Shown: positions 4,366 through 42,047 of the stretch, piece after piece
Layout of the letters: every line of letters begins with the position of its first letter
Numbering within the stretch: position 1 is the first letter of the stretch
Origin: an uncultured Pseudomonadota bacterium
Lineage (GTDB): Bacteria > Myxococcota_A > UBA796 > GCA-2862545
Assembly: GCA_913061235.1 (NCBI GenBank)
Contig: CAJXTB010000034.1
Span: forward strand, 1 to 51,062
Direction: 5' to 3'
Length of the DNA stretch: 51,062 nucleotides
The notes under the pieces: model-generated
Told to the model about the DNA's origin: nothing
What the model saw: the letters and a program-made list of their open reading frames with translations, nothing else
Databases searched by the model: none
Made by a program: the position numbers and the translations under genes

Positions 4366-6771
4366 CTAGAACTTCACCCAGCCCCAGCATGTGTTGTCGC
4401 CAGCGGTGGTGACGCCGCAGGTCATGCGCTCGCTGCCGGGCTCCGCGTAGATGTGCTGGAAGGTGGTATCTGGCACCTCCAGGCGCCCGATACTGCTCTC
4501 ACCCCAGCAGGTGACGGTGCCGTCGCTGGCAAGGCCACAGGCGTGTTCCCAGGCCACGACCAAGCTGTCGAACGGTCCAGCGGGTGCCTCGTTGACCACG
4601 CGGTTGATGGTGCCTTGATTTCCGTTGCGTGACTGGCCCCAACAGGTGGGCGCACCTGCGGAATCCAACGCGCAGCCGGCCCATCGACCAACCGCAACCT
4701 GGGTAAAGTCGTTGCTGCTTACTGGGGTAGACTGGCCTCTGTCGTCCGCGCCCCAGCACTCAATCGCACCCGCAGTGTTCACGGCGCAGGCGTTGTACTC
4801 GCCGGCGTCCATGTCGATGAAGGTGCCGGCGGGGCTGTTTAAGACGCCGTCGTTGCTGGTTCCCCAGCACGCGATTTGGCCGGTGTCTGCGGTCAGGCCG
4901 CAGGCAAAGGTGTTGCCCATTGACAGCGTGCTCATGGGCGCGGTCGGAACGCCTGTGGTGAGGGTGCTGCTGCCGAAGCAGCTCACGACACCCGTCGCGT
5001 CGCGGGCGCACTCGCCTCCGGGGTTCATGTTCAGGTCAACGAACTGGCCCTGGCTTGCGACGGTATTGGTGGCGGTGGGGCGTCCAAAGCACTCGATTTG
5101 ACCGCTAGGCCGGATTCCGCAGTGTCCTCTTGACGAGAATGCCCACTCTTGCCACGGGCCTTGGTACTCAGTGGGGTGCTGGCTCTGGAGCTTGTCGTTG
5201 TTGCCGAAGCAGTACAGAGCGCCGTCGTCATCCAGGCCGCACATCATGTACGCGCCGGACTTCACCACGGCCATGGCCACGTCTGTGGGGGCAGACACGC
5301 TCGGGGTGCTGTTTCGGTAGCAGTTGAGCGTACGGTCAGCCCTACGAATGCAGCCCCAGTTGGTGTCGTAGTGAGCGCTCAGTGCAGGCTCGGTGGGAGG
5401 ACTCGGCCAGCCACCACCATTGGTCGTGTTGCCCCAACACTCGGTCACGCCATCGGTGCGCACGCCGCAGGTCCTCGTGCTTCCGGCGGCAATGTGCTGG
5501 AAGGTGACGCCGACAGGCACGTCGAGCCGACCATCGGTGGCGTTGCCCCAACACTCCGCCTGTCCGTTCGCCCGCAGGCCACACAGGTGGCTCCCGCCTG
5601 GGCTTAGCTGGACCCACGGCCCAGGAATCGGGCCTTCGCCGGGGCTGATCGCGGCCCCGCCGGACCAGCAGTACAGGGCTTGGTCATCTCTACCGAGGCC
5701 ACACCACGACTCGATACCCGTGCCGACAATGGTGGACATGGGAACGTCTGGAACATCTCCACGACCAAACCGGGTGTCTCCCCAGCAGGTGGCATCGCCG
5801 TTGGCGTCGAGGGCACACATCATGTCCCCCCAACCTTCGGACAGGCTGGCGAAGGTGCCGCTGGGTGCGTCGCTGACAATGCCGCTGGTGTTTTGGCCCC
5901 AGCAGTCGATGTTGCCATCGAAGTCCAATGTGCACACTGTCTTCTCGGCCATGCCCACGTCAGCGTACCGTGCTTGTCCGCTCAGAATGGTGTTGCGAGG
6001 AATGAGGGTGTTGTCTTCTACAACTACGTTGGTGCGAAGGCGAGAACCGGCCCGGATGGTGACCGAGTCTCCCACGCGCACGCTGACTTCCATGATGACG
6101 TCGCGGCCAATGCGCGACTGCTCACCAATCTCCGAGTTGGAGTCAACGCGGACCCGCTTGCGCAAGCGGACTTGCTGGCCAACGACGACGTCGTCTCCAA
6201 TGACCGCTTCTGGGCCGACAACAACGCCATTTCCCATGCTGACGGTGTTGCCAATGCGCGCGGCTCTGGCAATCACAACGCCTTGGCCAATGACGGCGTC
6301 ATCCCCAATCTGAACGAGTGCACCGAGTGTGGCCCAGGCGCCAATCTGCGCGTTGTCTCCAAGCTGAGCGGCGTAGCCAAGGGCAACGTCGGCCCCGATG
6401 TTTCCCCCCGACCCAATCACCACGTTGCGAGCGAGAGTGACCCCGCTGGCCAGAGATGTACCGGCTCCAATGCGTGCTTTTCGGGCGATAATCACATCAT
6501 CCGCCACCGTGACACCGTCGGCCAACTGTACCCGTGCGCTGACCACAGACTGCGGGCCTACGGTCACTCCACTGCCCAAAATGGCGCTTGGATGAACCAC
6601 TGCGGTCACGTCTACACAGGCGTCGCCCCGGCCGTCCGCGTTGGCATCCACCTGGTTGGGATTGGAGATGCCGAGGCAGTTGTCTACGTCGTCTTCGATG
6701 GTGTCAAAGTCAGCGTCTGCCGCCCATGCGGAAGAGGCTCCGAGGAGCAAGAGGGCCAGTGTGCGCATCAT
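4366..6771 (-). CDS. Exported protein: Ca-type repeat, left-handed beta-helix and RCC1-like repeats
   Basis: This 801-residue protein has a signal peptide at 1-17 (ending SSAWA). Residues 19-53 are a thrombospondin-3-like calcium motif with alternating Asp and one Cys pair. Residues about 57-262 are hexapeptide repeats ([LIV]-G-x-x-[STAV]-x) typical of a left-handed beta-helix. Residues about 270-801 hold around a dozen RCC1-like units, each with a C-x-W/F-G pair, predicting one or two beta-propellers. The beta-helix is not accompanied by any acetyltransferase active-site loop, so it is likely structural. ATG at 6771 is followed at once by a second ATG (6768); either may be used after GAGAA. 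Surface display or secretion is inferred. A truncated relative of the N-terminal half lies at 49516-50154. Confidence 0.85.
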   Translation of the reverse strand: MMRTLALLLLGASSAWAADADFDTIEDDVDNCLGISNPNQVDANADGRGDACVDVTAVVHPSAILGSGVTVGPQSVVSARVQLADGVTVADDVIIARKARIGAGTSLASGVTLARNVVIGSGGNIGADVALGYAAQLGDNAQIGAWATLGALVQIGDDAVIGQGVVIARAARIGNTVSMGNGVVVGPEAVIGDDVVVGQQVRLRKRVRVDSNSEIGEQSRIGRDVIMEVSVRVGDSVTIRAGSRLRTNVVVEDNTLIPRNTILSGQARYADVGMAEKTVCTLDFDGNIDCWGQNTSGIVSDAPSGTFASLSEGWGDMMCALDANGDATCWGDTRFGRGDVPDVPMSTIVGTGIESWCGLGRDDQALYCWSGGAAISPGEGPIPGPWVQLSPGGSHLCGLRANGQAECWGNATDGRLDVPVGVTFQHIAAGSTRTCGVRTDGVTECWGNTTNGGGWPSPPTEPALSAHYDTNWGCIRRADRTLNCYRNSTPSVSAPTDVAMAVVKSGAYMMCGLDDDGALYCFGNNDKLQSQHPTEYQGPWQEWAFSSRGHCGIRPSGQIECFGRPTATNTVASQGQFVDLNMNPGGECARDATGVVSCFGSSTLTTGVPTAPMSTLSMGNTFACGLTADTGQIACWGTSNDGVLNSPAGTFIDMDAGEYNACAVNTAGAIECWGADDRGQSTPVSSNDFTQVAVGRWAGCALDSAGAPTCWGQSRNGNQGTINRVVNEAPAGPFDSLVVAWEHACGLASDGTVTCWGESSIGRLEVPDTTFQHIYAEPGSERMTCGVTTAGDNTCWGWVKF

Positions 6772-6888: not shown

Positions 6889-8049
6889 TCAGTCCAGACG
6901 CTTGCGAAACAACAGACTCGCGAAGCCCAAGATCAGCAGCCCGTACACCAGCAGGGCCGCGGTCTGTACAGGCACGTCAGACAGCGATGCCCCCTTCAAC
7001 AGAATCGCCCGAATCGCCTCCAGATAGAACCGGAGCGGGTTGAGCAGCGTCATGGGCTGCATCCAGTCGGGCATGGCGTGAATTGGCGTCATGGTGCCCG
7101 ACAGCAGAATCGCTGGGAGAATGAACAGGAATGCCCCGACGAATGCCTGTTGTTGTGTCTTGGAGACGGCAGCGAGGAACAAGCCTACGCCGACCGTGGT
7201 CAACAAGAACAACGACGTCACAATGTAGAAGTCGAGCATGCTTCCGCGAATGGGGACGTCGAAGATGTACACGCCTGCGGTGAGCGCTAGGGTCACGTCA
7301 AAGAGGCCCACAGCGACGAATGGCAGGACCTTTCCGAGCATCAGGACGGCTGTTGGCAACGGGGTGACGCGAATCTGCTCCAGGGTGCCGACTTCGCGCT
7401 CTCTAGACAGGCCCATGGCGGTCACAATGGTGGTGATGATGAGCAGCAGCATGCCGGCAATGCCCGGCACCATGTAGATGGGTGTCGATAGGCTTGGGTT
7501 GTAGGCCAGGCGGGAGCGCACATCGATGGCTGAGATCTGCACGTCGGGCGCTACGGCTGCGAGGCGCTGCTTGGCGAGAGAGAAGCCCTGTTCGCCAAAG
7601 TAGCGAACGGCCGCGCCACCGGCGATTCCCGAGCGTGTGGGGTCTGTGCCGTCGAGCAGCACCTGCACTTGGGTGGGCTCGCCGCGTGCCAGGTCGCGTG
7701 CGTAGCCCTCGGGCACAATCAGGACGACAGCGGCGTCACCTCGGTCCAGGGCTGCGTCGGCGTCGGACGGTGAGCCAGCGGTGCCCACGGCGGTGAGCGA
7801 GCCATCGGCCATCAGGGCGGCGACGGCATGTCGGCTCTCGGGCGTTCGGTCCATGTCCACAACGATGGTCGGAACCTGGTCTACGTCCAAGTCGATTGCG
7901 AAGCCGAGCAGGACCAGCTGCAGGAACGGCGCAATCACGATGAGGGCCATGATGCGCTTGTCTTGCACCGTCTGACGGACCTCTTTGACAACAACCGCCC
8001 ACAGCTGAACCAGCCAGCGAAAGGGGCCTGCGGCAGTGACGGCGCTCAT
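6889..8049 (-). CDS. ABC-2 family export permease
   Basis: This 386-residue protein has one N-terminal membrane span (about 29-50), a periplasmic domain of about 130 residues, and five C-terminal spans, the standard plan of ABC2_membrane_3 permeases (YbhR/YbhS/YhhJ type). Its ATG overlaps the TGA of the preceding permease by four bases (ATGA), showing translational coupling. It is the last gene of the five-gene exporter operon, after the membrane-fusion protein, two ATPases and the other permease. It should pair with the 376-residue permease to form the inner-membrane channel. The substrate cannot be read from the sequence; relatives export drugs, dyes, cations or lipids. Confidence 0.92.
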   Translation of the reverse strand: MSAVTAAGPFRWLVQLWAVVVKEVRQTVQDKRIMALIVIAPFLQLVLLGFAIDLDVDQVPTIVVDMDRTPESRHAVAALMADGSLTAVGTAGSPSDADAALDRGDAAVVLIVPEGYARDLARGEPTQVQVLLDGTDPTRSGIAGGAAVRYFGEQGFSLAKQRLAAVAPDVQISAIDVRSRLAYNPSLSTPIYMVPGIAGMLLLIITTIVTAMGLSREREVGTLEQIRVTPLPTAVLMLGKVLPFVAVGLFDVTLALTAGVYIFDVPIRGSMLDFYIVTSLFLLTTVGVGLFLAAVSKTQQQAFVGAFLFILPAILLSGTMTPIHAMPDWMQPMTLLNPLRFYLEAIRAILLKGASLSDVPVQTAALLVYGLLILGFASLLFRKRLD

Positions 8050-9176
8050 GCCAACTTCCGCTTGAACATCACGGTTGAGACCACCATCATCAGTGTGGCG
8101 AAGGCGGCGAGCAGCATCAGGGGAACGGCGAGCTCGGCAAAGCCGTTGTCTTTGAGCAGGGTGCCGCGCAGCACTTGAATGTAGTAGCGAGCCGGCACCA
8201 TGTTGCTGAGCGTTCGCAAGGGTAGCGGCATGTTCTCAACGGGAAACATGAAGCCGGAGAGCAACATGCTCGGCAGCATGGCGGTCATCACAGCGGTGAG
8301 CGACGCCACCATCTGGTTTCGGGCCACAATCGAGATGAGCAGCCCCTGTCCGAGCATGCCGACCATGAACAGCAGGCTGCCGAGTGCCACCACCAGTCCG
8401 TTCCCGTTGGTTGGCAGGCCGAAAATCCACGTGCCGGCTACGAGGACCAAGAGCACCTGGATGATGCCCATTCCCAGGTATGGCAGGAGCTTTCCGACCA
8501 CAATTTCGGCGCGGCGAACGGGGGTTGCGAAGAGCTGTTCCATCGACCCTTGCTCCCACTCTTTCGACACCGCGAGTGCGGTGAGCAACACCGAGACCAA
8601 GGCCATGACGTAGGCGGTGACGCCGGGAACCAAGAACAGTGCCGAGCGTCCGGCGGGGTTGTAGCGAGTCCAAGTGCGGGCCGAAACGGGCATGGAGCCA
8701 GCGATATCGAGGCCGCGCCTCTGGGCTGCTTGTGCGCTGGCGAGCTGGGCGAACGCGTCGGCACGAGCCAGGGCTTGCTGGGCAGAGTTGGCGTCTGCGG
8801 CGTCCAAGATGAGACCCACCTCAACATTCTCACCGCGCGACAGGGCAGCGGCGTAGCCCTCGGGAATGGTCAGCACTGCGTGGGCTTGGCTCTTGGCGAA
8901 GGCGTCGAGGGCGTCGTCAGGGTTGTCGAGAGCGCCGGCGAAGACGAACTCACTTCCTGCGGTGAACAGCTGGCGCAGCTCCCGGCTCTCCGTGGTGTTG
9001 TCTTGGTCGACGACGGCCAGCGGGATGTGGTCGAGGTCGAACGAGATGCCAAAGCCGAACAGAATGAGCAGAAACAGAGGCAGCGCGAGGCCGAGCCACA
9101 GGGTCAGCGGGTCCCGGCGAATGTGCAAGGTCTCCTTGCCGGCCATCGCGCCTACGCGGGTGAGGAAGAGCCACAT
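8046..9176 (-). CDS. ABC-2 family export permease
   Basis: This 376-residue permease has an N-terminal span at about 28-48, a periplasmic domain, and five or six C-terminal spans including the conserved region with REWEQGSMEQL-like sequence (here K-E-W-E-Q-G-S) after the second span. The start at 9176 lies two bases after the stop of the ATPase gene. It is similar in plan but not closely similar in sequence to the downstream permease, so the transporter is predicted to have a heterodimeric membrane part. It acts with the two ATPases and the HlyD-type adaptor at the inner membrane. Confidence 0.92.
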   Translation of the reverse strand: MWLFLTRVGAMAGKETLHIRRDPLTLWLGLALPLFLLILFGFGISFDLDHIPLAVVDQDNTTESRELRQLFTAGSEFVFAGALDNPDDALDAFAKSQAHAVLTIPEGYAAALSRGENVEVGLILDAADANSAQQALARADAFAQLASAQAAQRRGLDIAGSMPVSARTWTRYNPAGRSALFLVPGVTAYVMALVSVLLTALAVSKEWEQGSMEQLFATPVRRAEIVVGKLLPYLGMGIIQVLLVLVAGTWIFGLPTNGNGLVVALGSLLFMVGMLGQGLLISIVARNQMVASLTAVMTAMLPSMLLSGFMFPVENMPLPLRTLSNMVPARYYIQVLRGTLLKDNGFAELAVPLMLLAAFATLMMVVSTVMFKRKLA

Positions 9177-9178
9177 GT

Positions 9179-10144
9179 TCAGCTCCCCCCGAAGGCTTTG
9201 GCCGTACCGGCCTGTTGTGAGTCCGCGTCCACCACGGCCAAGAAGACGTCTTCGAGGTTGGCCTCGTCTTGGTCGATCTCAACGGGCCGAGCGAGCGCTT
9301 GCTGAAGAGTCTGCTCGGTAATGGGGGCGTCGTGTTGCACGCGCAGGCGCAGGCCGGCACCCATGGTCTGAACGTCGATGGCGCCGGGAAGGGCGGACAG
9401 GCGGGCTGCGGCGTCTCCGGTGAGCAGATCGGGTCCACGAACGACCCACAGTCGGCCAGGTACGAAGTGCTTCTTGAGGCCGTCAGGGGTGTCCAGCGCT
9501 GGCAAGCGACCGGCGACCATGAGTCCGACGCGTGCGCAATACTCGGCTTCGTCCATGTAGTGGGTGGTGACGAAGATGGTGGTGCCGGACTCAGCGAGTG
9601 AGCGGATGAGGGTCCAGAAGCGGCGTCTAGCCAAGGGGTCAACGCCGGCCGTAGGCTCGTCTAAGAACAGAATGTCGGGGGAATGCAGAATGGCGCCAGC
9701 GAGTGCGACGCGTTGGCGCATACCGCCGGGAAGGTCGCCAGTGACCACGTTCTCGCGGCCTTGCAGGTCTACAAGCTCCACCACTTCTGCAATGCGACGG
9801 CGCAGCGCTTTGCCCCACAGACCGTACGCGCCGCCGAAGAACTCGAGGTTGGCCTTCAGCGTGAGCTCTGTGTACAGGCTGAACTTCTGCGACATGTAGC
9901 CAATGGCCCGCTTGATACGCTCGGGGTTCTTGGACAGCTGGTGGCCCGCCACAATCGCGTCGCCTTCGCTGGGTGAGAGCAGACCGCACAGCATGCGGAT
10001 GGTGGTGGTCTTGCCGGCACCGTTGGCCCCGAGGTAGCCGAAGATTTCGCCCTTCTCGACCTGGAACGACACGTCATTGACGGCCGTAAAGTCACCATAG
10101 CGACGCGTCAGCTTGTCAACGACGATGGCGGGGGACGCGCTCAT
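9179..10144 (-). CDS. ABC exporter ATPase (second ATPase)
   Basis: This 321-residue ATPase has Walker A GANGAGKTT at 39-47, a Q-loop at Q86, a signature LPGGMRQR at 138-145 (Pro for the usual Ser), Walker B ILFLDEP at about 158-164, and the switch histidine at H195 (THYMDEA). About 70 extra C-terminal residues form the DUF4162-like tail usual in ABC-2 exporter ATPases. Its ATG overlaps the stop of the first ATPase as ATGA. In-frame sequence continues further upstream, but it overlaps the first ATPase and is not conserved in type, so 10144 is chosen. It has a complete catalytic set, unlike its partner. Confidence 0.93.
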   Translation of the reverse strand: MSASPAIVVDKLTRRYGDFTAVNDVSFQVEKGEIFGYLGANGAGKTTTIRMLCGLLSPSEGDAIVAGHQLSKNPERIKRAIGYMSQKFSLYTELTLKANLEFFGGAYGLWGKALRRRIAEVVELVDLQGRENVVTGDLPGGMRQRVALAGAILHSPDILFLDEPTAGVDPLARRRFWTLIRSLAESGTTIFVTTHYMDEAEYCARVGLMVAGRLPALDTPDGLKKHFVPGRLWVVRGPDLLTGDAAARLSALPGAIDVQTMGAGLRLRVQHDAPITEQTLQQALARPVEIDQDEANLEDVFLAVVDADSQQAGTAKAFGGS

Positions 10145-11046
10145 GCTTCGGCCAAGTGTGCGAGGAAGAGGTCTTCGAAGGTGGCCCGAGCGGGCTGCAG
10201 CGTGCATCCGAGCGGACGTAGGCGGTCGGTCAGCGCAGGCACGCCATCCGGAGCCACCACCACCCTCAGCCGAGCGCCTGCCGGAGAGTACGCGCGCACT
10301 TCAGGGGCGGTCTGAACGATGGCCTGAACGTGCTCGCGTGCACCGCCGAGAACGATGAAGACGGGGTGGTCGAACTCCTGAACCATGGTGTTGGGGGCGC
10401 CCATGGTCAGCATGCGTCCCTCGTGAAGAAGGCCGACACGGTGGCAGCGGGCTGCCTCGTCCATGTACGGAGTGCTCACCAGGACAGCCATGCCGTCGCC
10501 CACGAACTCGCCGAGAAGGGCCCAGAGCTCACGACGGCTCACGGGGTCCACGCCGTTCGTAGGCTCGTCGAGCAGGAGGACACGGGGTTCGTGGAGCAGG
10601 GCACACGCCAGAGCGAGCTTCTTGTACATGCCGCCAGACAGGGCCTGAGCGGGGCGGTCTACAAAGGCTGTGAGCCGGGTGAGTCCGAGCAGTCGGTCAA
10701 TGCGCTCGCGTCCGACCTTGCGCGAGATGCCGAACAGCTGTCGAAAGAAGTTGAGGTTCTCCGCGATGGACAGGTCGCCGTACAGGCTGTGCTGCTGGGG
10801 CATCAGACCCAGGTCTTCGCGTACTTGGGCACTGTCTGGGGGTAGTCCCAGCACGCTGACCTCTCCCGCGTCGGCGTCTAGGAGTCCGGCGATAGCTCGG
10901 ATGGCGGTCGTCTTTCCAGCGCCGTCCGGTCCGACGAGACCCACGATTTCGCCGGCCGCGACGGTCAGATCGATGCCCTTGAGCGCTTGGTTGTCGCCAA
11001 AGCTACGGGTCAGACCGCTCACGGAGATGGCGAGGGGCTCGCTCAC
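10141..11046 (-). CDS. ABC exporter ATPase (first ATPase, switch His replaced)
   Basis: This 301-residue ATPase has Walker A GPDGAGKTT at 39-47, a Q-loop at Q84/Q85, signature LSGGM at 136-140 and Walker B VLLLDEP at about 156-162. The H-loop position reads S-T-P-Y-M-D-E-A, so the switch histidine is Pro193. The start overlaps the stop of the HlyD gene by four bases. With the next gene it corresponds to the two halves of the fused YbhF-type ATPase. If the two subunits form a heterodimer, one composite site would be degenerate, as known for asymmetric ABC exporters. Confidence 0.92.
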   Translation of the reverse strand: MSEPLAISVSGLTRSFGDNQALKGIDLTVAAGEIVGLVGPDGAGKTTAIRAIAGLLDADAGEVSVLGLPPDSAQVREDLGLMPQQHSLYGDLSIAENLNFFRQLFGISRKVGRERIDRLLGLTRLTAFVDRPAQALSGGMYKKLALACALLHEPRVLLLDEPTNGVDPVSRRELWALLGEFVGDGMAVLVSTPYMDEAARCHRVGLLHEGRMLTMGAPNTMVQEFDHPVFIVLGGAREHVQAIVQTAPEVRAYSPAGARLRVVVAPDGVPALTDRLRPLGCTLQPARATFEDLFLAHLAEA

Positions 11047-12083
11047 TGGGCCACTTCTTGAAGCTCTACTTCAACCGGCATTCCGGGACGCAGCGCTCCG
11101 TCGGGATTGGGGACGTCCACCTCGACTCGGTACACCAGACGGTCGCGGTCAGTGCGGGTCTGGATGTTGCGCGGGGTGAACTCGGGCTCTGTGGCGACCG
11201 TTGCTACGGTGCCGCGAAACTCGGTATCGGGCCAGGCGTCTGCGCGAACAATGGCCGTACCGCCAGCCTGAGCTGCGGCGAGCTCCGCGTTGGGTAGGTA
11301 GAAGGCGGCGTGCACGACGGACAAGTCCACAATGCTCGCGAGCGTCATTCCTGGGCCCACCAGCTCTCCTTCCTCGAAGGGAAGCAAGCGTACTTGGCCC
11401 GTGCGAGGCGAGCGCACGTCACACTCGTCCACAGCGACTTGGGCGCGTTCCAGTTGGGCCTCGGCGGCGACCACCCCTTGGGCGGCGGCTCCAGCCTGTG
11501 CCGATGCAGCGCTGGCACTGCCTGTGGCGGCACGGGTCTGGGCTTGTCCGGCGCGCTTCTGCGACTGGGCGGCCTGCACCTGGGCCTCCAGGCCGATGGC
11601 ACCGGCGCGGGCTTGGTCGCGCTGTGACTCGCTGACGTCCTGTGGGACGGCATCTAGGCGGTCGGCTTGGCGCTGTGCGGCGTCGGCTTGTGCGCCGAGT
11701 GCGCGGGCTTGAGCGTCTGCTGCGGCGACGGCTGCACGGGCGGCACCAATCGCGTCACCTGCAGCCGAAGCGCCCTCAGAGGCCGCGGTAGCTTGTCCTC
11801 GGGCTGCGAGGACTTGGGCCTGTGCTGCGCTGAGGGCTGCGTTGGGTTCCACGCAGTCTAGGCGCACTAAGACCTCGCCTTCGTTGACCGCTTGGCCTTC
11901 GATGACGAACACCGCGTCAATGCGTCCTCCAACGCGGGACGACGCTCGAACCGTGGTGCCTTCGACCACGCCGCTGCCGCCCGGTGGACCGTCCAAGGCC
12001 ATCCGATTTCGGACGATGCGCACACCCAAGAGTGCCGAGAGCACCAGGATTGCGAGTACAAAGCCAACTGCCATGCGCCGCAT
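11043..12083 (-). CDS. HlyD/YbhG-type membrane-fusion protein
   Basis: This 346-residue periplasmic adaptor has an N-terminal membrane anchor at about 5-25, a biotinyl-lipoyl-like first half (V-x-A-S-S-R-V-G-G-R-I-x-x-V near 50), a long Ala/Gln-rich coiled coil at about 85-215, then the second lipoyl half and beta-barrel (V-R-S-P-R-T-G-Q-V). It should join the ABC permeases to the TolC-type channel encoded divergently. The ATG at 12083 follows GGAGGA by six bases; a longer in-frame N-terminus would run into the promoter region. First gene of the operon 12083 to 6889, with overlapping stops and starts throughout. A sigma-54 promoter match lies at 12123-12138. Confidence 0.93.
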   Translation of the reverse strand: MRRMAVGFVLAILVLSALLGVRIVRNRMALDGPPGGSGVVEGTTVRASSRVGGRIDAVFVIEGQAVNEGEVLVRLDCVEPNAALSAAQAQVLAARGQATAASEGASAAGDAIGAARAAVAAADAQARALGAQADAAQRQADRLDAVPQDVSESQRDQARAGAIGLEAQVQAAQSQKRAGQAQTRAATGSASAASAQAGAAAQGVVAAEAQLERAQVAVDECDVRSPRTGQVRLLPFEEGELVGPGMTLASIVDLSVVHAAFYLPNAELAAAQAGGTAIVRADAWPDTEFRGTVATVATEPEFTPRNIQTRTDRDRLVYRVEVDVPNPDGALRPGMPVEVELQEVAQ

Positions 12084-12122
12084 GTCATTCCTCCGTCCGG
12101 AAGGGTCCGGTGTGCTCTGCCA

Positions 12123-12138
12123 AGCACAGACCGTGCCA
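12123..12138 (-). promoter_or_regulatory. Sigma-54 promoter for the exporter operon
   Basis: On the minus strand the bases read TGGCACG-GTCT-GTGCT, matching the -24/-12 consensus TGGCACG-N4-TTGCW with one clear mismatch and with invariant GG and GC at the right spacing. The predicted start of transcription is near 12112, about 29 bases before the HlyD ATG. It faces away from a matching promoter for tolC, with palindromic sites between them. Confidence 0.65.
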
Positions 12139-12189
12139 AGAGTGTGGATGCGCTGACTGGGCTCGACTTCGGGTAGAAGCGGTCCAGAT

Positions 12190-12232
12190 CTGTACGGAAA
12201 CCCGTACACTGCACTGTCGGACTTCCGTACAG
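12190..12232. promoter_or_regulatory. Palindromic activator sites between divergent sigma-54 promoters
   Basis: A perfect dyad TGTACGG-AAAC-CCGTACA lies at 12191-12208. A second, half-degenerate site with the same CGG-N4-CCG core and an intact right arm lies at about 12214-12231. The centres are about 23 bases apart, two helical turns. The sites lie about 76-100 bases upstream of the tolC start point and 87-110 upstream of the exporter start point, the usual distance for NtrC-family enhancer sites. The likely binder is the NtrC-type regulator encoded at 15002-16330; this is inference. Confidence 0.6.
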
Positions 12233-12272
12233 GTGAGGCCTCACGATGCCGTGACTAGGCCCCTCGTGGTGT

Positions 12273-12288
12273 TGGCACCGCAATTGCT
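12273..12288 (+). promoter_or_regulatory. Sigma-54 promoter for tolC, kinase and regulator
   Basis: The bases TGGCACC-GCAA-TTGCT match the -24/-12 consensus at all positions but one, with the invariant GG and GC correctly spaced. Transcription should start near 12299, 23 bases before the tolC ATG. The operon it drives encodes an NtrC-type activator, so positive autoregulation is likely. Confidence 0.7.
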
Positions 12289-12321
12289 TGGGAGTCGGTG
12301 TCTCGTCACGACGGAGTCTCG

Positions 12322-13647
12322 ATGACCCACCTGCTCCTCACCCTTGTGAGCGCCCTCGCACTCAGCACCGCAAACGCCGCCGAGCCCGCACCGTTGGTGG
12401 CCGACCTGTCGCTGTCACAAGCGCTCGAGCGGCTCGTGGACGACTCACCGCTTCTCGCAGAGGTACAGGGACGGGTGGACGAAGTCCAGGCCGGTGCACG
12501 CATGGCGTCGGTGGGTGTGCAGCCAATGGTCGTTGCGACCGGCGGATTCGCGGTGAACAACGCGGAAGCTATCGTGTCTCTCGGCAACATCCTGTCGACT
12601 CTGCCGGTGCCCGTGGACCCGGCGACGCTGCCGCCGGACCTGATCATTCAGCCAAAACAGCAGTGGACCGCCGGTGTGTCGGCAAAGGTTCCGCTCATTG
12701 TGCCGTCGGCATGGGCATCCCGTTCAGCGGCTCGTCGTGGTGTGACCGCCGCTCGAGCCGGTGCCGACCATGCTGAGCTGTCTGCGCAAGCGGGCTTGGT
12801 TCGTGCGGCGTGGGGGGCTTGGGTGGCGGATGAGCAGGTGACCGTCTTGAACTCCGCCCTGGAGTCTGCCCGCGCCCATCATGACAGCGTTGCCCGACGC
12901 ACAGAGGCCGGGCTCGGCACCCCCTTAGACGTGTTGGCTGCGGAGACCGAGGTGCTTCGCCGTGAGCGCGAGTGGTTGGGTGCAGTTGCCCAGCTAGACG
13001 GGGCCCGACGCGCCGTTGGCGGCTTGTTGGGTGTGGAGGGGGCCGTTCGAATCGCGGTGCCAGATGTCGACCGCCTGCCGAGTCTGGGATCGGTCTCTGC
13101 GAGCGAACATCCACAGGTTCGCGCCAACGAAGCCCAGCAGTCTGCGGTTCGTGCGGCATCGCATGCAGCGGCGTGGCGTCATGCGCCGACCCTGTCCGCG
13201 TCCGCCGCGCTCATGGCATCCGACGTGGCCTATCCAACCGGTGAAACAGAGTTCTGGCGTGTGGGCTTGGACCTGAACTGGGTGCTGTACGACGGTGGAG
13301 CACGCTACGGAATGGCAGACCAAGCGGCAGCACAGCGCGTTCAAGCGGAGGCGTCGGGTCGACGTCTGGCCCTCGACTTGTCGCGTGCGCTCGCCGATGC
13401 TGAACAGGCTGAGACGACTGCACGTCAGACCCTCGCTCTGGCCGAGTCTGGAGCCAGCACGGCGGCGGTGGCTGAGGCGACTGCGACTCGCCTGTATGAA
13501 GGCGGCCTTGCTCGCTCTCTGGATGTGTTGGACGCGCAGCAGCGACGGCTCGAAGCTGACCTGGCGCTCGCTGGGGCCACGGCTGCTGTGGCGTCCGCTC
13601 GTGTTGACCGCCTGCTCGCCATGGGGCAGCCGTGGCCGACACCCTAG
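12322..13647 (+). CDS. TolC-family outer-membrane efflux protein
   Basis: This 441-residue protein has a signal peptide at about 1-19 (ending TANA) and two repeats of the OEP type. Each has long Ala-rich helices with spaced Leu/Val and one beta region; an N-E-A-Q/A-Q-Q helix appears in the second half, and L-Y-E-G-G-L-A-R-S-L-D-V-L-D-A-Q-Q near 395-411 is the family's C-terminal hallmark. The ATG at 12322 has CGGAG six bases upstream; longer in-frame starts would disrupt the signal peptide. It should form the outer-membrane channel for the divergent ABC exporter. The kinase gene follows after about 17 bases. Confidence 0.92.
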   Translation: MTHLLLTLVSALALSTANAAEPAPLVADLSLSQALERLVDDSPLLAEVQGRVDEVQAGARMASVGVQPMVVATGGFAVNNAEAIVSLGNILSTLPVPVDPATLPPDLIIQPKQQWTAGVSAKVPLIVPSAWASRSAARRGVTAARAGADHAELSAQAGLVRAAWGAWVADEQVTVLNSALESARAHHDSVARRTEAGLGTPLDVLAAETEVLRREREWLGAVAQLDGARRAVGGLLGVEGAVRIAVPDVDRLPSLGSVSASEHPQVRANEAQQSAVRAASHAAAWRHAPTLSASAALMASDVAYPTGETEFWRVGLDLNWVLYDGGARYGMADQAAAQRVQAEASGRRLALDLSRALADAEQAETTARQTLALAESGASTAAVAEATATRLYEGGLARSLDVLDAQQRRLEADLALAGATAAVASARVDRLLAMGQPWPTP

Positions 13648-13664
13648 AGGTCAGAGGAGGTAGG

Positions 13665-15005
13665 GTGGGGGACATGCCCGCGTTCCCACCACCACCACCT
13701 GTCGACGACAGCGCCCTTGTCGACCAAGACGTCATTGTAGGCGCCGAGCTTCAGGGCTTGCTGCGCACGTTGATTGCTGTGCGCATGTGGGTGGTGCCGC
13801 TTCTGGCAGTCATCGCCGGTGTGGTTGTGTGGTCGGACCCAAGCCCATGGCGCGTATGGGTGCTCGGGGTGCTGGTGGCCGTCGCCGTCATCGCGTCGGT
13901 TCTGATGGAGCTGCGCGCCCGTCGAACGGATCTCACGCTTCACGCGGCTGGCCCCAACCTGGTCGCCATGGCGGTCGCCCAGCTCACGCTGATTACCGCG
14001 AGCGGTGGGGTCGACAGCCCCATCCTTCCCATCATGTTGCCCATGGGACTGCTGACCACGGTGTCTATGGGTCGCCGTCCGCTGACGGTCGGCGTGCTTG
14101 CCGTTCAGATTGTCGGTCTGGCAGTCTTGACGAGCGCTCAGGCCAGTGGACTGGCTCCCGTGCTGGACATGCCGGTTTTGTACGGAGAAAACGGACCTCC
14201 CGCACCCATGGTTCGGGTGGTAGTCGGCACCATTGTCGGTGTGGCCTTGGTGCTCTCGGCAGCCATCGGCCTGCACATTCGCACGCGCTTTGTTGCCATG
14301 GTCGACACCGGCCTGCACGCGCGGGCCGAGCAGCTGGCCACGTGGCGGACCTCTTCCCGCGACCTACAGGCGCTCAGCGGCGAGCTCGCTCATGAGCTGA
14401 AGAACCCGCTTGCCTCCATCAAGGGACTGAGCGCGCTTGTGGCGCGTGACCTCACCGAGCAACGCACCCAAGAGCGCATGCGGGTTCTACAGGCTGAGGT
14501 TGAGCGTATGCGGGGTATTGTCGATGAGTTCCTGACGTTCTCCCGTCCACTTACTCCGCTGTCCGTGTCGCCTGTTGACCTCGTCGCGCTGTGTGAACGC
14601 GCACGCCGACTTCACGAAGGGACCGGTAGTCATCGTCGTGTTCAGGTGACTTGTGGGGGTACCGCTCCTGCCGTCCCCGGAGATGTTCGCAAGCTGCTTC
14701 AGGTGCTCGTGAACCTGGTTCAGAACGCGATTGTGGCCACGGCAGAGGGCTCGCAGGTGGAGGTCGTCCTGTCGTCTGACGCTGACCAGGTGTTCGTAGA
14801 CGTGCTCGACCGTGGCCCCGGTGTCGACCCGTCTGTCCGCGACCGGGCCTTTGAGGCGGGGGTGACCAATAAGCAGGACGGAAGCGGACTGGGACTGCCC
14901 ATATCGCTGGCCATTGCCCGTCAACACGGCGGTGACCTGGCCCTGCTCGACCGCCCGGGTGGCGGCACGATAGCCCGGCTGACCCTGCCTCGGAGTTCTC
15001 CATGA
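13665..15005 (+). CDS. Six-TM sensor histidine kinase, RegB/NtrB-like
   Basis: The protein of about 446 residues has six predicted membrane spans (about 33-58, 62-83, 97-113, 118-135, 140-160, 180-205). The kinase core has H-box A-H-E-L-K-N-P-L-A-S-I (His at about 243), N-box N-L-V-Q-N-A, G1 D-R-G-P-G-V and G2 G-S-G-L-G-L-P. The loop between spans 3 and 4 reads S-G-G-V-D-S-P, resembling the GGxxNPF quinone-binding loop of RegB/PrrB. GTG at 13665 has AGGAGG four bases upstream; ATG at 13674 is the alternative. Its stop overlaps the regulator start as ATGA, so the pair is co-translated. It probably phosphorylates the NtrC-type regulator that controls the exporter. Confidence 0.9.
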   Translation: MGDMPAFPPPPPVDDSALVDQDVIVGAELQGLLRTLIAVRMWVVPLLAVIAGVVVWSDPSPWRVWVLGVLVAVAVIASVLMELRARRTDLTLHAAGPNLVAMAVAQLTLITASGGVDSPILPIMLPMGLLTTVSMGRRPLTVGVLAVQIVGLAVLTSAQASGLAPVLDMPVLYGENGPPAPMVRVVVGTIVGVALVLSAAIGLHIRTRFVAMVDTGLHARAEQLATWRTSSRDLQALSGELAHELKNPLASIKGLSALVARDLTEQRTQERMRVLQAEVERMRGIVDEFLTFSRPLTPLSVSPVDLVALCERARRLHEGTGSHRRVQVTCGGTAPAVPGDVRKLLQVLVNLVQNAIVATAEGSQVEVVLSSDADQVFVDVLDRGPGVDPSVRDRAFEAGVTNKQDGSGLGLPISLAIARQHGGDLALLDRPGGGTIARLTLPRSSP

Positions 15006-16330
15006 CCCCCCACGTGCTCGTTGTGGACGACGACGACGGTGTGCGCTTCACGGTCACCAGCGTTCTCGAAGACGCAGGAATGACCGTGGTCCAGGCCCGT
15101 CACGGCGTTGAAGCGCTCGCCATGTTGGACGCCGAAGACGGTATCCACGTCGTCGTCACCGACCTGCGCATGCCCACCATGGACGGCATGGCTCTGCTGA
15201 CGGCCATCACCCAGCGAGACGACCCGCCCCGCGTCATCGTCATGACCGCCTACGGTGACGAGCGGGCTGCGGTGGACGCCATGAAGGCCGGAGCCTGGGA
15301 CTACTTTCGCAAGCCCTTCGACATTGACGAGCTGGCAGCGGTTGTTGAGCGTGCCGCCGAGACCGTGCGTCTCCAGGGGCATGTGGACCGCCTAGAAGGG
15401 GAGCTGCAGCTCGCCCGGCACATGGTGTTTCGCTCCGAGTCCATGGCGCGGCTTGCCTCCCTTGTTCAGCGCGTTGCCCCGCGGGACGTGACGGTGCTCA
15501 TCACTGGCGAGAGTGGAACCGGTAAGGAACATATCGCCGAAGCCATCGTTGCCAGCTCAAGCCGTGCGAACCAGCCCTTTGTGCGGTTCAACTGTGCCTC
15601 GCTTGGAGCCGAGCTCGCTGAGGCCGAGCTGTTTGGCCACGCACGCGGCGCCTTCACCGGTGCTGTTCGGGCGCGTGCTGGCTTGTTTCGCGAGGCAGAT
15701 GGCGGAACGTTGCTGCTGGACGAGGTGGGTGAGCTGGACCCCGTCGTACAAGCCCGTCTTCTTCGCGTGCTTCAAAATGGGGAAGTACGGCCAGTTGGCG
15801 AAGACCGTCCTGTCTCGGTGAACGTGCGCGTCTTGGCCGCTACCCACCGCGACCTTGCCGCGATGTCCGCGGACGGCTCCTTCCGCGAAGACCTATACTA
15901 CCGCCTGAACGTGGTTCAGCTCCATGTACCCAGCTTGCGCGAACGTCCCGACGATATTCCAGAGCTGACCAGGCACTTCATTCGACAAGCCGCCGACCGT
16001 TTCGGCGTGGCGAACGTGCAAGAGCCCGCGGGCTTGATGGACGCGCTCATGCGCAAGCCGTGGCCGGGCAATGTGCGCGAGCTGAAGAATGCGGTGGAGA
16101 TGATGGTGGCGCTGTCTGCAGATGGCGTGCTGGACCTAGCCCTCATGCACGACACGCCGAGCGAAGCGCCAGCGGCGGTGGGGCTGCGCGCGCGGGTGGA
16201 CGCGTACGAGCGTGGTCTGCTGCGTGAGGCGCTGAAGGTGGCCGGTGGCAACAAGGCTGCGGCGGCACGAGCACTTGGGATTGGGCGGGTGACGCTGTAC
16301 GAGAAGCTGGCGAAGCACGGCCTGGCGTAG
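15002..16330 (+). CDS. NtrC-family sigma-54-dependent response regulator
   Basis: This 442-residue regulator has three domains. The receiver (about 1-120) has acidic residues at 10-12, phospho-acceptor D54 in V-V-T-D-L-R-M-P, and K104. The AAA+ domain (about 140-375) has Walker A GESGTGKE at 169-176, the sigma-54 contact loop GAFTGA at 216-221 and Walker B LLLDEV at 237-242. The Fis-type helix-turn-helix at about 400-442 has G-G-N-K-A-A-A-A-R-A-L-G. It is the last gene of the tolC-kinase-regulator operon. It should bind upstream palindromes and activate sigma-54 promoters by ATP hydrolysis; matching promoters flank the palindromes at 12.2 kb. Confidence 0.94.
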   Translation: MTPHVLVVDDDDGVRFTVTSVLEDAGMTVVQARHGVEALAMLDAEDGIHVVVTDLRMPTMDGMALLTAITQRDDPPRVIVMTAYGDERAAVDAMKAGAWDYFRKPFDIDELAAVVERAAETVRLQGHVDRLEGELQLARHMVFRSESMARLASLVQRVAPRDVTVLITGESGTGKEHIAEAIVASSSRANQPFVRFNCASLGAELAEAELFGHARGAFTGAVRARAGLFREADGGTLLLDEVGELDPVVQARLLRVLQNGEVRPVGEDRPVSVNVRVLAATHRDLAAMSADGSFREDLYYRLNVVQLHVPSLRERPDDIPELTRHFIRQAADRFGVANVQEPAGLMDALMRKPWPGNVRELKNAVEMMVALSADGVLDLALMHDTPSEAPAAVGLRARVDAYERGLLREALKVAGGNKAAAARALGIGRVTLYEKLAKHGLA

Positions 16331-16864: not shown

Positions 16865-18502
16865 CTAGCGCTGGGTTCCCTGCGTGTTCTGGATGCCCGC
16901 GGACACGTCGGAGAAGAACAGGTTGCCCTGCACCTTGGTTGGGATGCGGTTGTCCGTTGTTGAGCCGTCGCCTTGGCGACCGTAGTCGCCTCTGCCCCAG
17001 CACCACATCTCGTCGTTCATGTCGATGGCACAGCTGTGCTGGTAGCCAACGGCGAGCTGCTTGTAGGTGCCGTCGCCAGAGATGGGCAGGGGCGTGTTGT
17101 TGTCGCCCGTAGTGTTGCGACCGGTCTGGTACTCGCTGGCATCGCCCCAACAGTAGATCTTTCCGTCTGTCCGAAGTCCGCAGGAGTGCGCTTCGCCGGT
17201 TCCGATGAACTCCCACGCATGGCCGCCGGAAATCAACGCTGGGGTCTGCGCATCTGTGGTCGAGCCCCGTCCGAGCCGTCCGCTTCCGCCTTCGCCCCAG
17301 CAGTACCCAATGTTGTCTACGGTCACACCGCAGTTGTGGAACGAGCCCGTCTCGATCCAGTCCCATTCGTATCCGAGGATAAGGCCGGGTGCACTTGGGT
17401 TGTAGCCTGAACCACCGTTTCCGAGCTCACCGTGGTTGTCGTTGCCCCAGCAGTAGCCATTGGCCTGCCCTGTCTGGGTGGTGACTCCACACAAGTGGGC
17501 CCGGTGAGCGGCGCCGTCGTAGCGGCCGCCAGGAGACAAGACCTTCCAGCTCAGTCCGCCGACCACGGCTTGCGGGGTGTACAGGTAGGACGTGGAGCTG
17601 ACTCCGTTTCCGAGCCCGCCGTAGTGCTGGTATCCCCAGCAATACGCCTGGTCAGAGGTCGTGATTCCACAGGAGACCAGCCCGAATCCCTGGTAGACGT
17701 CGCGCCACTGCTGGCCGTTGCTCGCTTCAACAGGTCGGTTGATGTTGGCGGAGTCGCCGTCAGGGACATTGCTCCCGCGTCCCCAACAGTACAGCCGCTG
17801 CTCCGTATCAATAGCGCAACCAGTCGTGTCGTTGCCGTTGGAGTACCCACCCGCCGCCATCTTCACGAACGTGACTCCGCCAGGGACTTCAATCTCCTTT
17901 GGGAAGGATTGGTCCACTTCGTCGCCAAGTCCGAGCCCACCGGTCTCGGCTTGGCCCCAAGAAAACACACCCGTGCCGACTTGGTTCGTACTGCCGCCGA
18001 TGGGAGCCCAAGAGGAACCTGTCCAGGTCTCTAGGCGTGTTGCACTGCTGTTGTAGATGATCTGGCCAAGGACTGGCTCCAGGTCGTCTCGTTCGGCGGT
18101 GGTGACGGGCGTGGGGACCACCGCACCTGAGCTTCCGGAAGTCTGTCCCGCCGACAGAGCGAATGGCACTGCGTGAATCTCCGACCTGGGAAGCAACTCG
18201 GGACCACCGGAGACCGTGAGACTGACCCAGTAGGTCGTGTCGCTCAGGCTCAGTGTGGTCAAGTCACAAGCACCGTCACCGATGACCACGCTGTAGTAGC
18301 CGTCTTGCACGGTTATCGGCTCGTCTTCCGAACATTGGGCACTACCGCCCGTAGGTTGCGTGTGCAATCCGACGTTGAGTGTGACGTTCCCGTTGATGGG
18401 CCCGCCAGCGGCGTCGATCAGCCGGCCTTGTTGGAGCATTGTATTGGGGGCGGCAAACGCTGTTGATACACCGGAAATGATAAGAAACGCCCAACGATAC
18501 AT
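16865..18502 (-). CDS. Exported RCC1-repeat protein with stalk-type N-terminal domain
   Basis: This 545-residue protein has a signal peptide at 1-18. Residues about 22-115 form a domain beginning Q-G-R-L-x-D-A-x-G-x-P-I-N-G that is shared with the 271-residue protein at 40030. A short segment like those of phage tail fibres (I-I-Y-N-S-S-x-T-R-L-E-T-W-T-G-S-S-W) follows at about 145-165. Residues about 175-540 hold seven or eight RCC1-like units with C-x-W-G and G-x-L-G-x-G, predicting a seven-bladed propeller. GGAGTAGAG precedes the ATG. Surface location is inferred; no enzyme motif is seen. Confidence 0.85.
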   Translation of the reverse strand: MYRWAFLIISGVSTAFAAPNTMLQQGRLIDAAGGPINGNVTLNVGLHTQPTGGSAQCSEDEPITVQDGYYSVVIGDGACDLTTLSLSDTTYWVSLTVSGGPELLPRSEIHAVPFALSAGQTSGSSGAVVPTPVTTAERDDLEPVLGQIIYNSSATRLETWTGSSWAPIGGSTNQVGTGVFSWGQAETGGLGLGDEVDQSFPKEIEVPGGVTFVKMAAGGYSNGNDTTGCAIDTEQRLYCWGRGSNVPDGDSANINRPVEASNGQQWRDVYQGFGLVSCGITTSDQAYCWGYQHYGGLGNGVSSTSYLYTPQAVVGGLSWKVLSPGGRYDGAAHRAHLCGVTTQTGQANGYCWGNDNHGELGNGGSGYNPSAPGLILGYEWDWIETGSFHNCGVTVDNIGYCWGEGGSGRLGRGSTTDAQTPALISGGHAWEFIGTGEAHSCGLRTDGKIYCWGDASEYQTGRNTTGDNNTPLPISGDGTYKQLAVGYQHSCAIDMNDEMWCWGRGDYGRQGDGSTTDNRIPTKVQGNLFFSDVSAGIQNTQGTQR

Positions 18503-21573: not shown

Positions 21574-21589
21574 TGCAATCAACATGCCA
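21574..21589 (-). promoter_or_regulatory. Sigma-54 promoter for the flavoenzyme-cytochrome operon
   Basis: On the minus strand the bases read TGGCATG-TTGA-TTGCA, one mismatch from TGGCACG-N4-TTGCA with invariant GG and GC in place. The predicted start is near 21563, about 22 bases before the ATG, with GGAGG between. Confidence 0.65.
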
Positions 21590-21763
21590 GAATGAGTGGG
21601 TGATTCGGAGTCGGGAATCACGCGATGATTAGGCATTTGGAATGTGTGAATAGTGCGGATTGAAGAAACCGAGCATGGTTAGCGGATTTTGTACGGGTTT
21701 GCGAGGGGTTCTGCGGACTCCGGTCGTTGAATGGGTCGGGAGTTCCGAACGTGCGTAACGGGT

Positions 21764-21794
21764 GGATTCATCTGGAATCCTCAGAAATTCTGAG
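21764..21794. promoter_or_regulatory. Two adjoining palindromes, candidate activator sites
   Basis: GGATTC-ATCTG-GAATCC is immediately followed, sharing one base, by the odd palindrome CTCAGAA-A-TTCTGAG. They lie roughly 200-230 bases upstream of the flavoenzyme start point and 260-290 upstream of the dehydrogenase start point, within the range used by sigma-54 enhancer sites. Confidence 0.4.
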
Positions 21795-22029
21795 AACGGT
21801 CGAAGGGTGTCAATGCCAAGAACCAGAGTTCGCCGGTTCAGCGCGCTACGCATCCGCCGGACTGAGATCAACTGCATTAACCGTGTTATTTGCCACACAT
21901 AGGTGTGTTAAATGGTACAGTTTTAGGGTTATTGAAAACCGTTATCGATTGAATTGTGCGTAAATCTATTTGATTTGATGCGGGGCCTTCCAGCCTCCCG
22001 GCCGTTGGTTCGACTCGTTGCCCCATCAT

Positions 22030-22045
22030 TGGCACGTCCTGTGCT
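22030..22045 (+). promoter_or_regulatory. Sigma-54 promoter for the short-chain dehydrogenase
   Basis: TGGCACG-TCCT-GTGCT matches the -24/-12 consensus with a perfect -24 element and one mismatch in the -12 element (the same GTGCT as in the exporter promoter). The start is predicted near 22056, 23 bases before the ATG, with AAGGAG between. Confidence 0.65.
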
Positions 22046-22865: not shown

Positions 22866-25261
22866 TCAGAGTTCCCGCTCGGCGTCTGCCACCGAGCGGG
22901 TCACGCTCAACACGGCGTCGGGTGTGACGCTGATGCTGCTGATGCCGTGGCTCACGAGAAAGGCAGCGAACTCGGGATGGTCAGAGGGCGCCTGGCCACA
23001 GATGCCCACCGGAGTCCCTGATGCGCGGGCAGCGACGAGCAACATGCGGCATGCCTCCTTGAGAGCGGGTCCGTCGTCGTCGAACAGTTGGGACACAATC
23101 GCCGAGTCGCGGTCCACCCCGTACACGAGCTGGGTCAGGTCGTTCGAGCCAATGGAGAACCCGTCGAACAACGCGGCAAACTCGGCGGCTAGCAGCACGT
23201 TGCTGGGAATCTCCGCCATCACGTAGACCTTCAACGGCACGCCGTCGCCACCTGCTTGGGGAAGTCCTCCGGCGATGAGCTCGTTCAGCACCGACTGGCC
23301 CTCTTCGGGGGTCCGGCAGAAGGGGACCATGACGTGGGCGTTGTCGAATCCGAGCGTGTTCCGCACGCGCTTCATGGCTGCGACCTCTAGTGCAAACGCC
23401 TCTTTGAATATGGGATGCGCATAGCGGCTCGCTCCCCGCCATCCAATCATCGGGTTCTCTTCGGTGGGCTCGAAGGACTCCCCGCCGAGCAGGTGGGCGT
23501 ACTCATTGGACTTGAAGTCGCTGAAGCGAACAATGACGGGACGCGGGTGGAAGGCCGCCGCGATTCGGGCGTTGCCCGTGGACAATCGGTCGATGAAGAA
23601 GGTCTGTGGTGAGTCCCATCCGGCGGTGTGCGCAGCGACCTGTGCGGCGACGTCAGGGGCGAGCTGTTCAGGATGGAGCAGTGCGAGGGGATGGACCCCA
23701 ATAGCGCCGGCGAAGAGGAACTCCATGCGAACAAGGCCAACGCCGTCCACTGGAAGTCGGCTTACTCCCAACGCTTGGTCGGGGTCGGCCAGGTTGACAA
23801 GGATGCTTGTACAAGGATTGGGCAGCGTGGCCAGATCAATCTCTTCGGTCTGGAACGGCACCGCCCCTGAGTACACGCGTCCGACCGGGCCTTCCGCACA
23901 GGAGACCGTCACAGTGCCTGCCTGCGCCAGGAGCGCCCGAGCGTTCGGTGCGGCAACAACTGCAGGAATGCCATGTTCCCGGGCCACAATGGCGGCATGA
24001 CTGGTTCGACCACCTTCTTCGGTCACCAGGGCGGCCGCAATCTTCATCACCGGCTCCCAGTCGGGATTTGTGTTGCGTGCGACGAGGACATCGCCGGGCT
24101 GGACCTCGCTGAGCTTGCTGGCATCGTGTACGACCCGTGCGGTGCCGGTGGCGATTCCTCGGCCTACCGCGAGTCCCTCGCACACGGCTTCTTTGGGTGC
24201 GGTGATCTCGTAGTGCAGCAGCGTACCTTCCTGTTGGGAGTGCACCGTCTCGGGTCGTGCCTGGAGGATGAACAGCTCACCGGTCTCGCCGTCCTTGCCC
24301 CACTCAAGGTCCATGGGTGTGGGAGTCTTGCGCATGGCAGAGAAGTGGTCTTCGATTGCACAGGCCCACCGCGCCAAGGTCTTGACCTCGTCGTCCGTCA
24401 AGGACCAGGCCCGCTGCTCGTCCAGCGGCACCGGTTTGTCGACCAGCTTCCTGGCGACGTCGTCCCACCGTAGAGCGAGGGCTTTGGTGCCCTTCTGGCG
24501 GTCGATGATGCCTGGAAACCCGTGAGTAGCGTGGCCTTATGGACGATAAAGCCGTCGGGAACCACTTTTCCCTGCACGACATTCTCACCAAGTCCGTACG
24601 CTGCGGTCACATAGACCACGCCGCGGTGCCCACTGTCTGGGTCGAGGGTGAAGATGACGCCCGCGGACCCGGTGTCTGTCCGCACCATGCGCTGAATACC
24701 GACCGACAACGCGACTTCTAGGTGACCAAAGCCACGGTTTTCCCGATAGGCGATGGCGCGCGCGGTGAACAGGCTCGCGAAGCAGCGGCGAGTCGCGTCC
24801 ACAATCTTGTCGGCTCCTCGGATGTGCAGGTAGGTGTCTTGCTGGCCGGCAAAGCTTGCCGTGGGCAGGTCCTCGGCCGTCGCAGAGGACCGAACTGCAC
24901 AGGAGACGGTCTCCCCGGCGGCGACGCACATGTGACGGTAGGAATCCCGAAGGGACTGCTCGAGTTCAGGCGGCCAAGCGGCGACCTCGATGGCCTGTCG
25001 AATGGCTGCTGCGCGGGACTGGAGGTCGGCGACGTCGTCCACATCCAGCCCATCGAGCTGATGCTGGATGACCGTCACCAAGCCGCTGTGGCCGAGGAAG
25101 TCACGGTACGCGGAGGCGGTCACCGCAAAGCCGCCGGGGACCGCGATGCCGAGTTGTGTGAGTGAGCCCAGCATCTCGCCGAGTGCGGCGTTCTTTCCAC
25201 CGACCGCGTTCAGATCAGCCATGGTCAGGTCTTTGAGTTCTCGAATCCAGCGCTCATTCAT
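22866..25261 (-). pseudogene. ppsA: Phosphoenolpyruvate synthase with one frameshift
   Basis: Two overlapping frames (25261 down to about 24510, and about 24510 to 22866) together give a full pyruvate, water dikinase of about 798 residues, the usual size. The first part has the ATP-grasp domain (G-G-K-N-A-A-L-G-E-M near 20; V-R-S-S-A-T-A-E-D); the second has the phospho-His loop G-G-R-T-S-H-A-A-I-V-A-R-E and the TIM-barrel domain ending G-I-C-G-Q-A-P-S. Adding one base near 24508-24512 (TTCCAGGC read as TTCCCAGGC) restores a continuous frame. GGAGGT precedes the ATG at 25261. It is either a recent inactivation or a sequencing error; everything else is intact. The enzyme makes PEP from pyruvate and ATP for gluconeogenesis. 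Confidence 0.88.
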
Positions 25262-25283
25262 TGAATACCTCCGCGAAGGAAGC

Positions 25284-25299
25284 TGCAAGCTTTGAGCCA
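25284..25299 (-). promoter_or_regulatory. Possible sigma-54 promoter for ppsA
   Basis: On the minus strand TGGCTCA-AAGC-TTGCA has a perfect -12 element and T-G-G-C of the -24 element, at the right spacing. The predicted leader would be only about 13 bases, just enough for the GGAGGT site, so this is a weaker call than the others. Confidence 0.3.
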
Positions 25300-25437
25300 A
25301 TCAACCCGGTGTGGTTGGTGTTGAGTGTGGCCCGAGAAATCAAGATGACTCGCCTGGTTCCGACCGGGCCATGCCGCGACAAATTGCCGCACTTCCGCCG
25401 CGGATGTGCGTGGACACTTTCAAGCTAGGAGGTGTCT

Positions 25438-41957: not shown

Positions 41958-42047
41958 GTCAGCGGCGGTGCGGTAGAACCGGGTCTATTCGCTGGCACGA
42001 CCGCTGCACCGCGGCGTCCGTCCACGCCGTGAGCGGCGAATCGTGAG

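Follow-up and report, generated by a model that had tools for sequence, protein, structure and literature searches.

The zraP/zraSR locus of E. coli and Salmonella has divergent sigma-54 promoters and encodes an autoregulated two-component system (PMC4987338). GlrR of E. coli and Salmonella was reported to bind TGTC-N10-GACA (PMC4987338). In Myxococcus xanthus, Nla28 acts at sigma-54 promoters on the efflux operons MXAN989 and MXAN7147 (PMC9765219). Furthermore, the exporter YbhGFSR of E. coli lies in one operon with the TetR-type regulator YbiH/CecR (PMC7190983). In the present study, a stretch of 51,062 nucleotides (the window) was analyzed, in which the genes of an exporter and those of a TolC channel, a histidine kinase and a response regulator diverge from the intergenic region 12084-12321 (Table 1). 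Judging from its sequence and from that of its relatives, the locus is very probably a self-contained, positively autoregulated, sigma-54-dependent signaling and export module that serves one exporter.

Pfam analysis bore out the gene content proposed in an earlier note on this DNA: one side carries HlyD, two ATPases and two permeases, and the other carries tolC, a kinase and an NtrC-type activator. An HlyD adaptor, two ATPase domains and two permeases, together with TolC, make up a tripartite ABC-2 exporter of the YbhGFSR/RbbA type, and the best family matches of the exporter were RbbA and PRK03598 (secretion protein HlyD). The exporter was not the RbbA equivalog (NF033858) itself: the permeases scored at most 240.7 bits and ATPase 2 scored 284.9 bits against a curated cut-off of 1050, and the proteins are separate, whereas RbbA is an ATPase-ATPase-permease fusion. 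Start and stop codons overlapped at the hlyD/ATPase 1, ATPase 1/ATPase 2 and kinase/regulator junctions, which is consistent with two operons. Two minus-strand genes, at 4366-6771 and 16865-18502, flank the module and encode proteins with RCC1-like repeats according to the reading of their frames; in the protein of 4366-6771 there is, in addition, a long repeat of hexapeptides (left-handed helix). Both genes were left out of the comparison among relatives.

The structure model of the kinase (mean pLDDT 82.9) contained six transmembrane helices, in agreement with the earlier reading of the protein. Its GG-x-x-SP motif was nearly invariant among the 24 sequences compared, and this motif, which lies after helix 3, resembles the GG-x-x-NPF motif of RegB. 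The kinase could not be assigned to the ActS/PrrB/RegB redox kinases, as its score of 78.6 bits fell short of the curated cut-off of 350 and it carried no cysteine after H254 in the same helix. The regulator had the architecture of an NtrC-type response regulator, with a receiver, an AAA+ domain and a Fis-type helix-turn-helix. Asp54, Walker A, the helix-turn-helix and the GAFTGA loop, the last of which had been noted before as intact, were complete in this protein and in its relatives. Identity with ZraS/ZraR was also rejected, with scores of 117.2 against a cut-off of 479 for ZraS and 367.6 against 760 for ZraR.

Table 1. Genes, predicted promoters and dyads of the divergent locus (positions in the window)
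Feature	Position	Strand	Remarks
ABC-2 permease 2	6889..8049	minus	Pfam
ABC-2 permease 1	8046..9176	minus	Pfam
ABC ATPase 2	9179..10144	minus	probable ATG at 10144 overlaps the ATPase 1 stop; listed ORF from 10207
ABC ATPase 1	10141..11046	minus	GTG start overlapping the hlyD stop
hlyD-type periplasmic adaptor	11043..12086	minus	Pfam; ribosome site GGAGGA ahead of ATG
Exporter-side -24/-12 element TGGCACGGTCTGTGCT	12138..12123	minus	direct sequence reading; predicted start ~12112
Perfect dyad TGTACGG-AAAC-CCGTACA	12191-12208		predicted enhancer; centre ~-88 (minus start), ~-100 (plus start)
Second dyad CTGTCGG-ACTT-CCGTACA	12214-12231		predicted regulator site; centre ~-111 (minus start), ~-77 (plus start)
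tolC/kinase/regulator-side -24/-12 element TGGCACCGCAATTGCT	12273..12288	plus	direct reading; predicted start ~12299
tolC-type outer-membrane channel	12322..13647	plus	probable ATG start; Pfam
Six-helix histidine kinase	13632..15005	plus	H254; GG-x-x-SP (residues 125-130) after third helix
NtrC-type response regulator	15002..16330	plus	receiver D54; AAA+ with GAFTGA; Fis-type helix-turn-helix

The facing sigma-54 promoters proposed in the earlier note were both read in the intergenic region. The GG and GC dinucleotides were correctly spaced in the two elements (TGGCAC-N5-TTGCW), and TGGCACCGCAATTGCT was the sole zero-mismatch match to this consensus in the window. Each element outscored all of 200 dinucleotide-shuffled versions of this region, with p-values that are indicative, as the scoring matrix was self-built from the published consensus. 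The genome also has a gene for RpoN (PF04552, E=2.5e-59). Across the window, the generic -24/-12 pattern with at most two mismatches gave 34 matches against 29 expected, which is no enrichment, and five sites in the whole window scored at least 15.5 with the sigma-54 matrix. Since the pattern was not enriched and five sites scored equally high, the statistics of this single sequence are of moderate strength, and conservation must decide.

Between the promoters, the perfect dyad and the second site two turns away were found as described before, with a centre-to-centre distance of 23 bp. The dyads are common to both promoters, and the two predicted starts lie 77-111 bp downstream of the dyad centres, which is a normal enhancer distance. 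The only exact matches to the family motif in the 51 kb were these two dyads. The perfect dyad occurred as a single copy in the 7.18-Mb genome; copies with at most two mismatches numbered 39, against 36 for the reversed pattern, which is the background level. A wider regulon in the same genome was not supported, as the three one-mismatch dyads had no sigma-54 element nearby. Because the dyads are the sole exact matches in the window, the perfect dyad is unique and the one-mismatch copies lack a sigma-54 element, the regulator looks dedicated to the adjacent exporter locus.

Other sigma-54-like elements were observed in the window. A second divergent pair, of strong elements, lies at 21574-22045: TGGCATGTTGATTGCA (21589..21574, minus) precedes a flavoprotein gene at 21541, and TGGCACGTCCTGTGCT (22030-22045, plus) precedes a gene for a short-chain dehydrogenase whose start is at about 22079. 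A further sigma-54-like element, TGGCTCAAAGCTTGCA, is located at the start of a PEP-synthase/PPDK-like gene (25299, minus). This gene is broken into two overlapping minus-strand frames (24398-25300 and 22866-24431), which points to either a frameshift or an error in the assembly. The strong element TGGCACGACCGCTGCA (41993-42008, plus) has no evident gene start directly downstream, and a peroxiredoxin-like gene lies on the opposite strand.

Orthologues of the regulator, with 62-68% identity, were present in five relatives. In four of these, the divergent arrangement was complete as far as the contig extends. In the fifth, genome G032, two contigs each carry a part of the regulator, and the same arrangement was seen at the kinase end. 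The kinase query found matches in 6 of 63 genomes at the level of the order, in 8 of 71 at class level and in 29 of the 379 genomes that made up the phylum sample (kinase relatives in the phylum sample being defined by E<=1e-50). In the phylum sample, hlyD was adjacent in 21 of the 29 kinase loci. A second draw gave 14 further, held-out kinase loci, with hlyD alongside in nine and tolC in one. In some families, tolC is the first gene of the exporter operon (L066, L068, L075 and L076) and the kinase directly faces that operon. In addition, some kinase-regulator loci had no neighboring exporter. In one relative (L063:3449-7924), the kinase-regulator pair is convergent with a gene for an AcrB-type RND pump and not beside the ABC exporter, hinting that the kinase-regulator family may serve other pumps.

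The promoter elements were also conserved. After exclusion of L024 and L071, which are near-duplicates from the same genus, the exporter-side element reached p<0.05 against shuffles in 17 of the 18 discovery loci and in 9 of the 9 held-out loci (26 of 27 linked loci in total). The kinase/tolC-side element (p<=0.05) was detected in 13/18 discovery and 7/9 held-out loci, giving 20/27, and several of the promoter elements were perfect TGGCACG-N4-TTGCT. The family enhancer motif was TGT-(N)NGG-N4-CCN(N)-ACA. Its half-sites were not uniformly spaced (TGT-N10 to N12-ACA), and the two dyads of the window already differ from each other in this respect. The motif was exact in 14 of the 18 regions of the discovery set, against a mean of 0.01 in shuffles. 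As these regions had in part served to define it, the held-out set is important. There, it was exact in two of eight regions (0.01 expected) and present with at most one mismatch in five of eight (0.34 expected). Conservation in orthologous loci had been proposed earlier as a check on the locus, and the gene order, the facing promoters and the enhancer motif were indeed kept across many families of the phylum.

The kinase-side promoter was undetectable in the remaining 7 of the 27 loci, which would fit a system in which sigma-54 acts on the exporter side only and the tolC-kinase-regulator operon is transcribed mainly from an unrecognized housekeeping promoter. Furthermore, a closed sigma-54 loop requires a basal supply of regulator. 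However, the kinase-side element of this locus has no mismatch and beat all shuffles, and a scan of the intergenic region, of a kind poorly suited to such genomes, found no sigma-70-like promoter; the preferred loop, too, has thus no recognized source for its initial regulator. This explanation is therefore considered unlikely, and sigma-54 control of both operons is preferred.

The sigma-54 promoters could also be real and be activated by another enhancer-binding protein, with the adjacent regulator acting elsewhere. The source genome contains at least 30 NtrC-type matches from which such an activator might come. Moreover, the exporter at L102 (genome G053) is orthologous to the present one and stands without kinase and regulator, and it retained an element of the sigma-54 type, with p-values of 0.000 in one run and 0.015 in another. 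On the other hand, the kinase and regulator lie beside the exporter in most of the kinase loci, as given above, and no dyad was found upstream of the L102 exporter. The dyad thus goes with the regulator, as the locus that lacks the kinase and regulator also lacks the dyad. Control by a different activator appeared quite improbable, and the adjacent regulator is regarded as the protein that probably binds the dyads.

The earlier statement that exporters of this type are usually under TetR-type repressors agreed with a small sample. Among three distant exporter operons of the same order, a TetR-type gene came first in two (L104 by Pfam, L105 by reading of the frame), and no convincing sigma-54 pair was found at L104, the operon whose promoters were checked in full. 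YbhGFSR of E. coli shares its operon with the TetR-type YbiH/CecR. These TetR-type regulators of related exporters might suggest that the dyads are repressor operators and the -24/-12 matches incidental, as might the fact that repressors typically act at perfect palindromes flanked by divergent genes. This reading is highly improbable, however. The conserved module has no repressor gene, and its -24/-12 elements are retained on the two sides, each suitably spaced from its start codon. Moreover, the predicted starts lie about 80-110 bp downstream of the dyads, a position expected of an enhancer and not of a repressor site.

In the preferred sigma-54 module, the six-helix kinase would respond to a signal within the inner membrane or close to it, and would phosphorylate the NtrC-type regulator. 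Dimers of the regulator would then occupy the two tandem dyads midway between the facing promoters and assemble into an AAA+ ring. From this one enhancer, both operons, hlyD-ATPase-ATPase-permease-permease and tolC-kinase-regulator, would be switched on, and the tripartite pump and its own controller would be raised together, which would amount to positive autoregulation. The binding of the adjacent regulator to the dyads, the control by phosphorylation and the transcription starts are predicted from the arrangement of the locus. As to the nature of the signal and the cargo, and the basal source of regulator expression, we infer rather than observe. Sensing of membrane quinones or lipophiles by the kinase is a guess, because its membrane region is only weakly RegB-like (78.6 bits against the cut-off of 350).

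The module is new as an assembly and is built from parts of known kinds. No published description of such a module was found, in a literature search that missed most subscription papers. A larger proposal is that these loci form an undescribed, phylum-wide class of sense-and-export systems, in which a six-helix kinase with the RegB-like GG-x-x-SP motif would detect a lipophilic or quinone-like compound in the membrane, and positive feedback through sigma-54 alone would switch on, in an all-or-none manner, the pump by which this compound is removed. This proposal is tentative and rather doubtful. With an autoregulatory loop that runs on sigma-54 alone, basal expression should be close to zero and the switch should be sharp. 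The host phylum is rich in NtrC-type two-component systems, and a large group of them that is unstudied would here be tied to one concrete target and a predicted binding site. In addition, the locus clearly illustrates how one type of exporter can be placed under different regulators, TetR-type or sigma-54 two-component, in related bacteria.

Compared with described systems, the module shares its parts with several of them. Like zraP/zraSR, it has a membrane kinase and an NtrC-type regulator that would activate both a target and their own operon, and ZraS and ZraR were among the best matches of the kinase and the regulator. The two differ in the target, which is a single periplasmic chaperone in the Zra system and an exporter here, and in the six-helix membrane region of the kinase. 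The exporter resembles YbhGFSR/RbbA in its HlyD adaptor, two ATPase domains and two ABC-2 permeases; it differs in having separate ATPases, tolC within the module, and predicted sigma-54 two-component control instead of TetR-type control. The kinase gave a weak full-length match to RegB/PrrB/ActS, including the membrane region (78.6 bits), far below their cut-off of 350, and is without the redox cysteine near the phosphorylated histidine. With GlrR/QseF, the regulator has in common the NtrC type and a role in envelope functions, and the spacing of the GlrR site equals that of several family dyads. It was different from GlrR in score (376.5 against a cut-off of 763) and in targets, which for GlrR are the small RNA genes glmY/glmZ and rpoE. 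Nla28 is likewise an NtrC-type protein that controls efflux operons through sigma-54 promoters, but it is a pleiotropic starvation regulator with the half-site CT[C/G]CG[C/G]AG, whereas the regulator here looks dedicated to its exporter. The earlier view that sigma-54 two-component control of such an exporter is unusual can be kept with the qualification that the efflux operons of M. xanthus have sigma-54 promoters and that zraP/zraSR is a precedent for the regulatory design.
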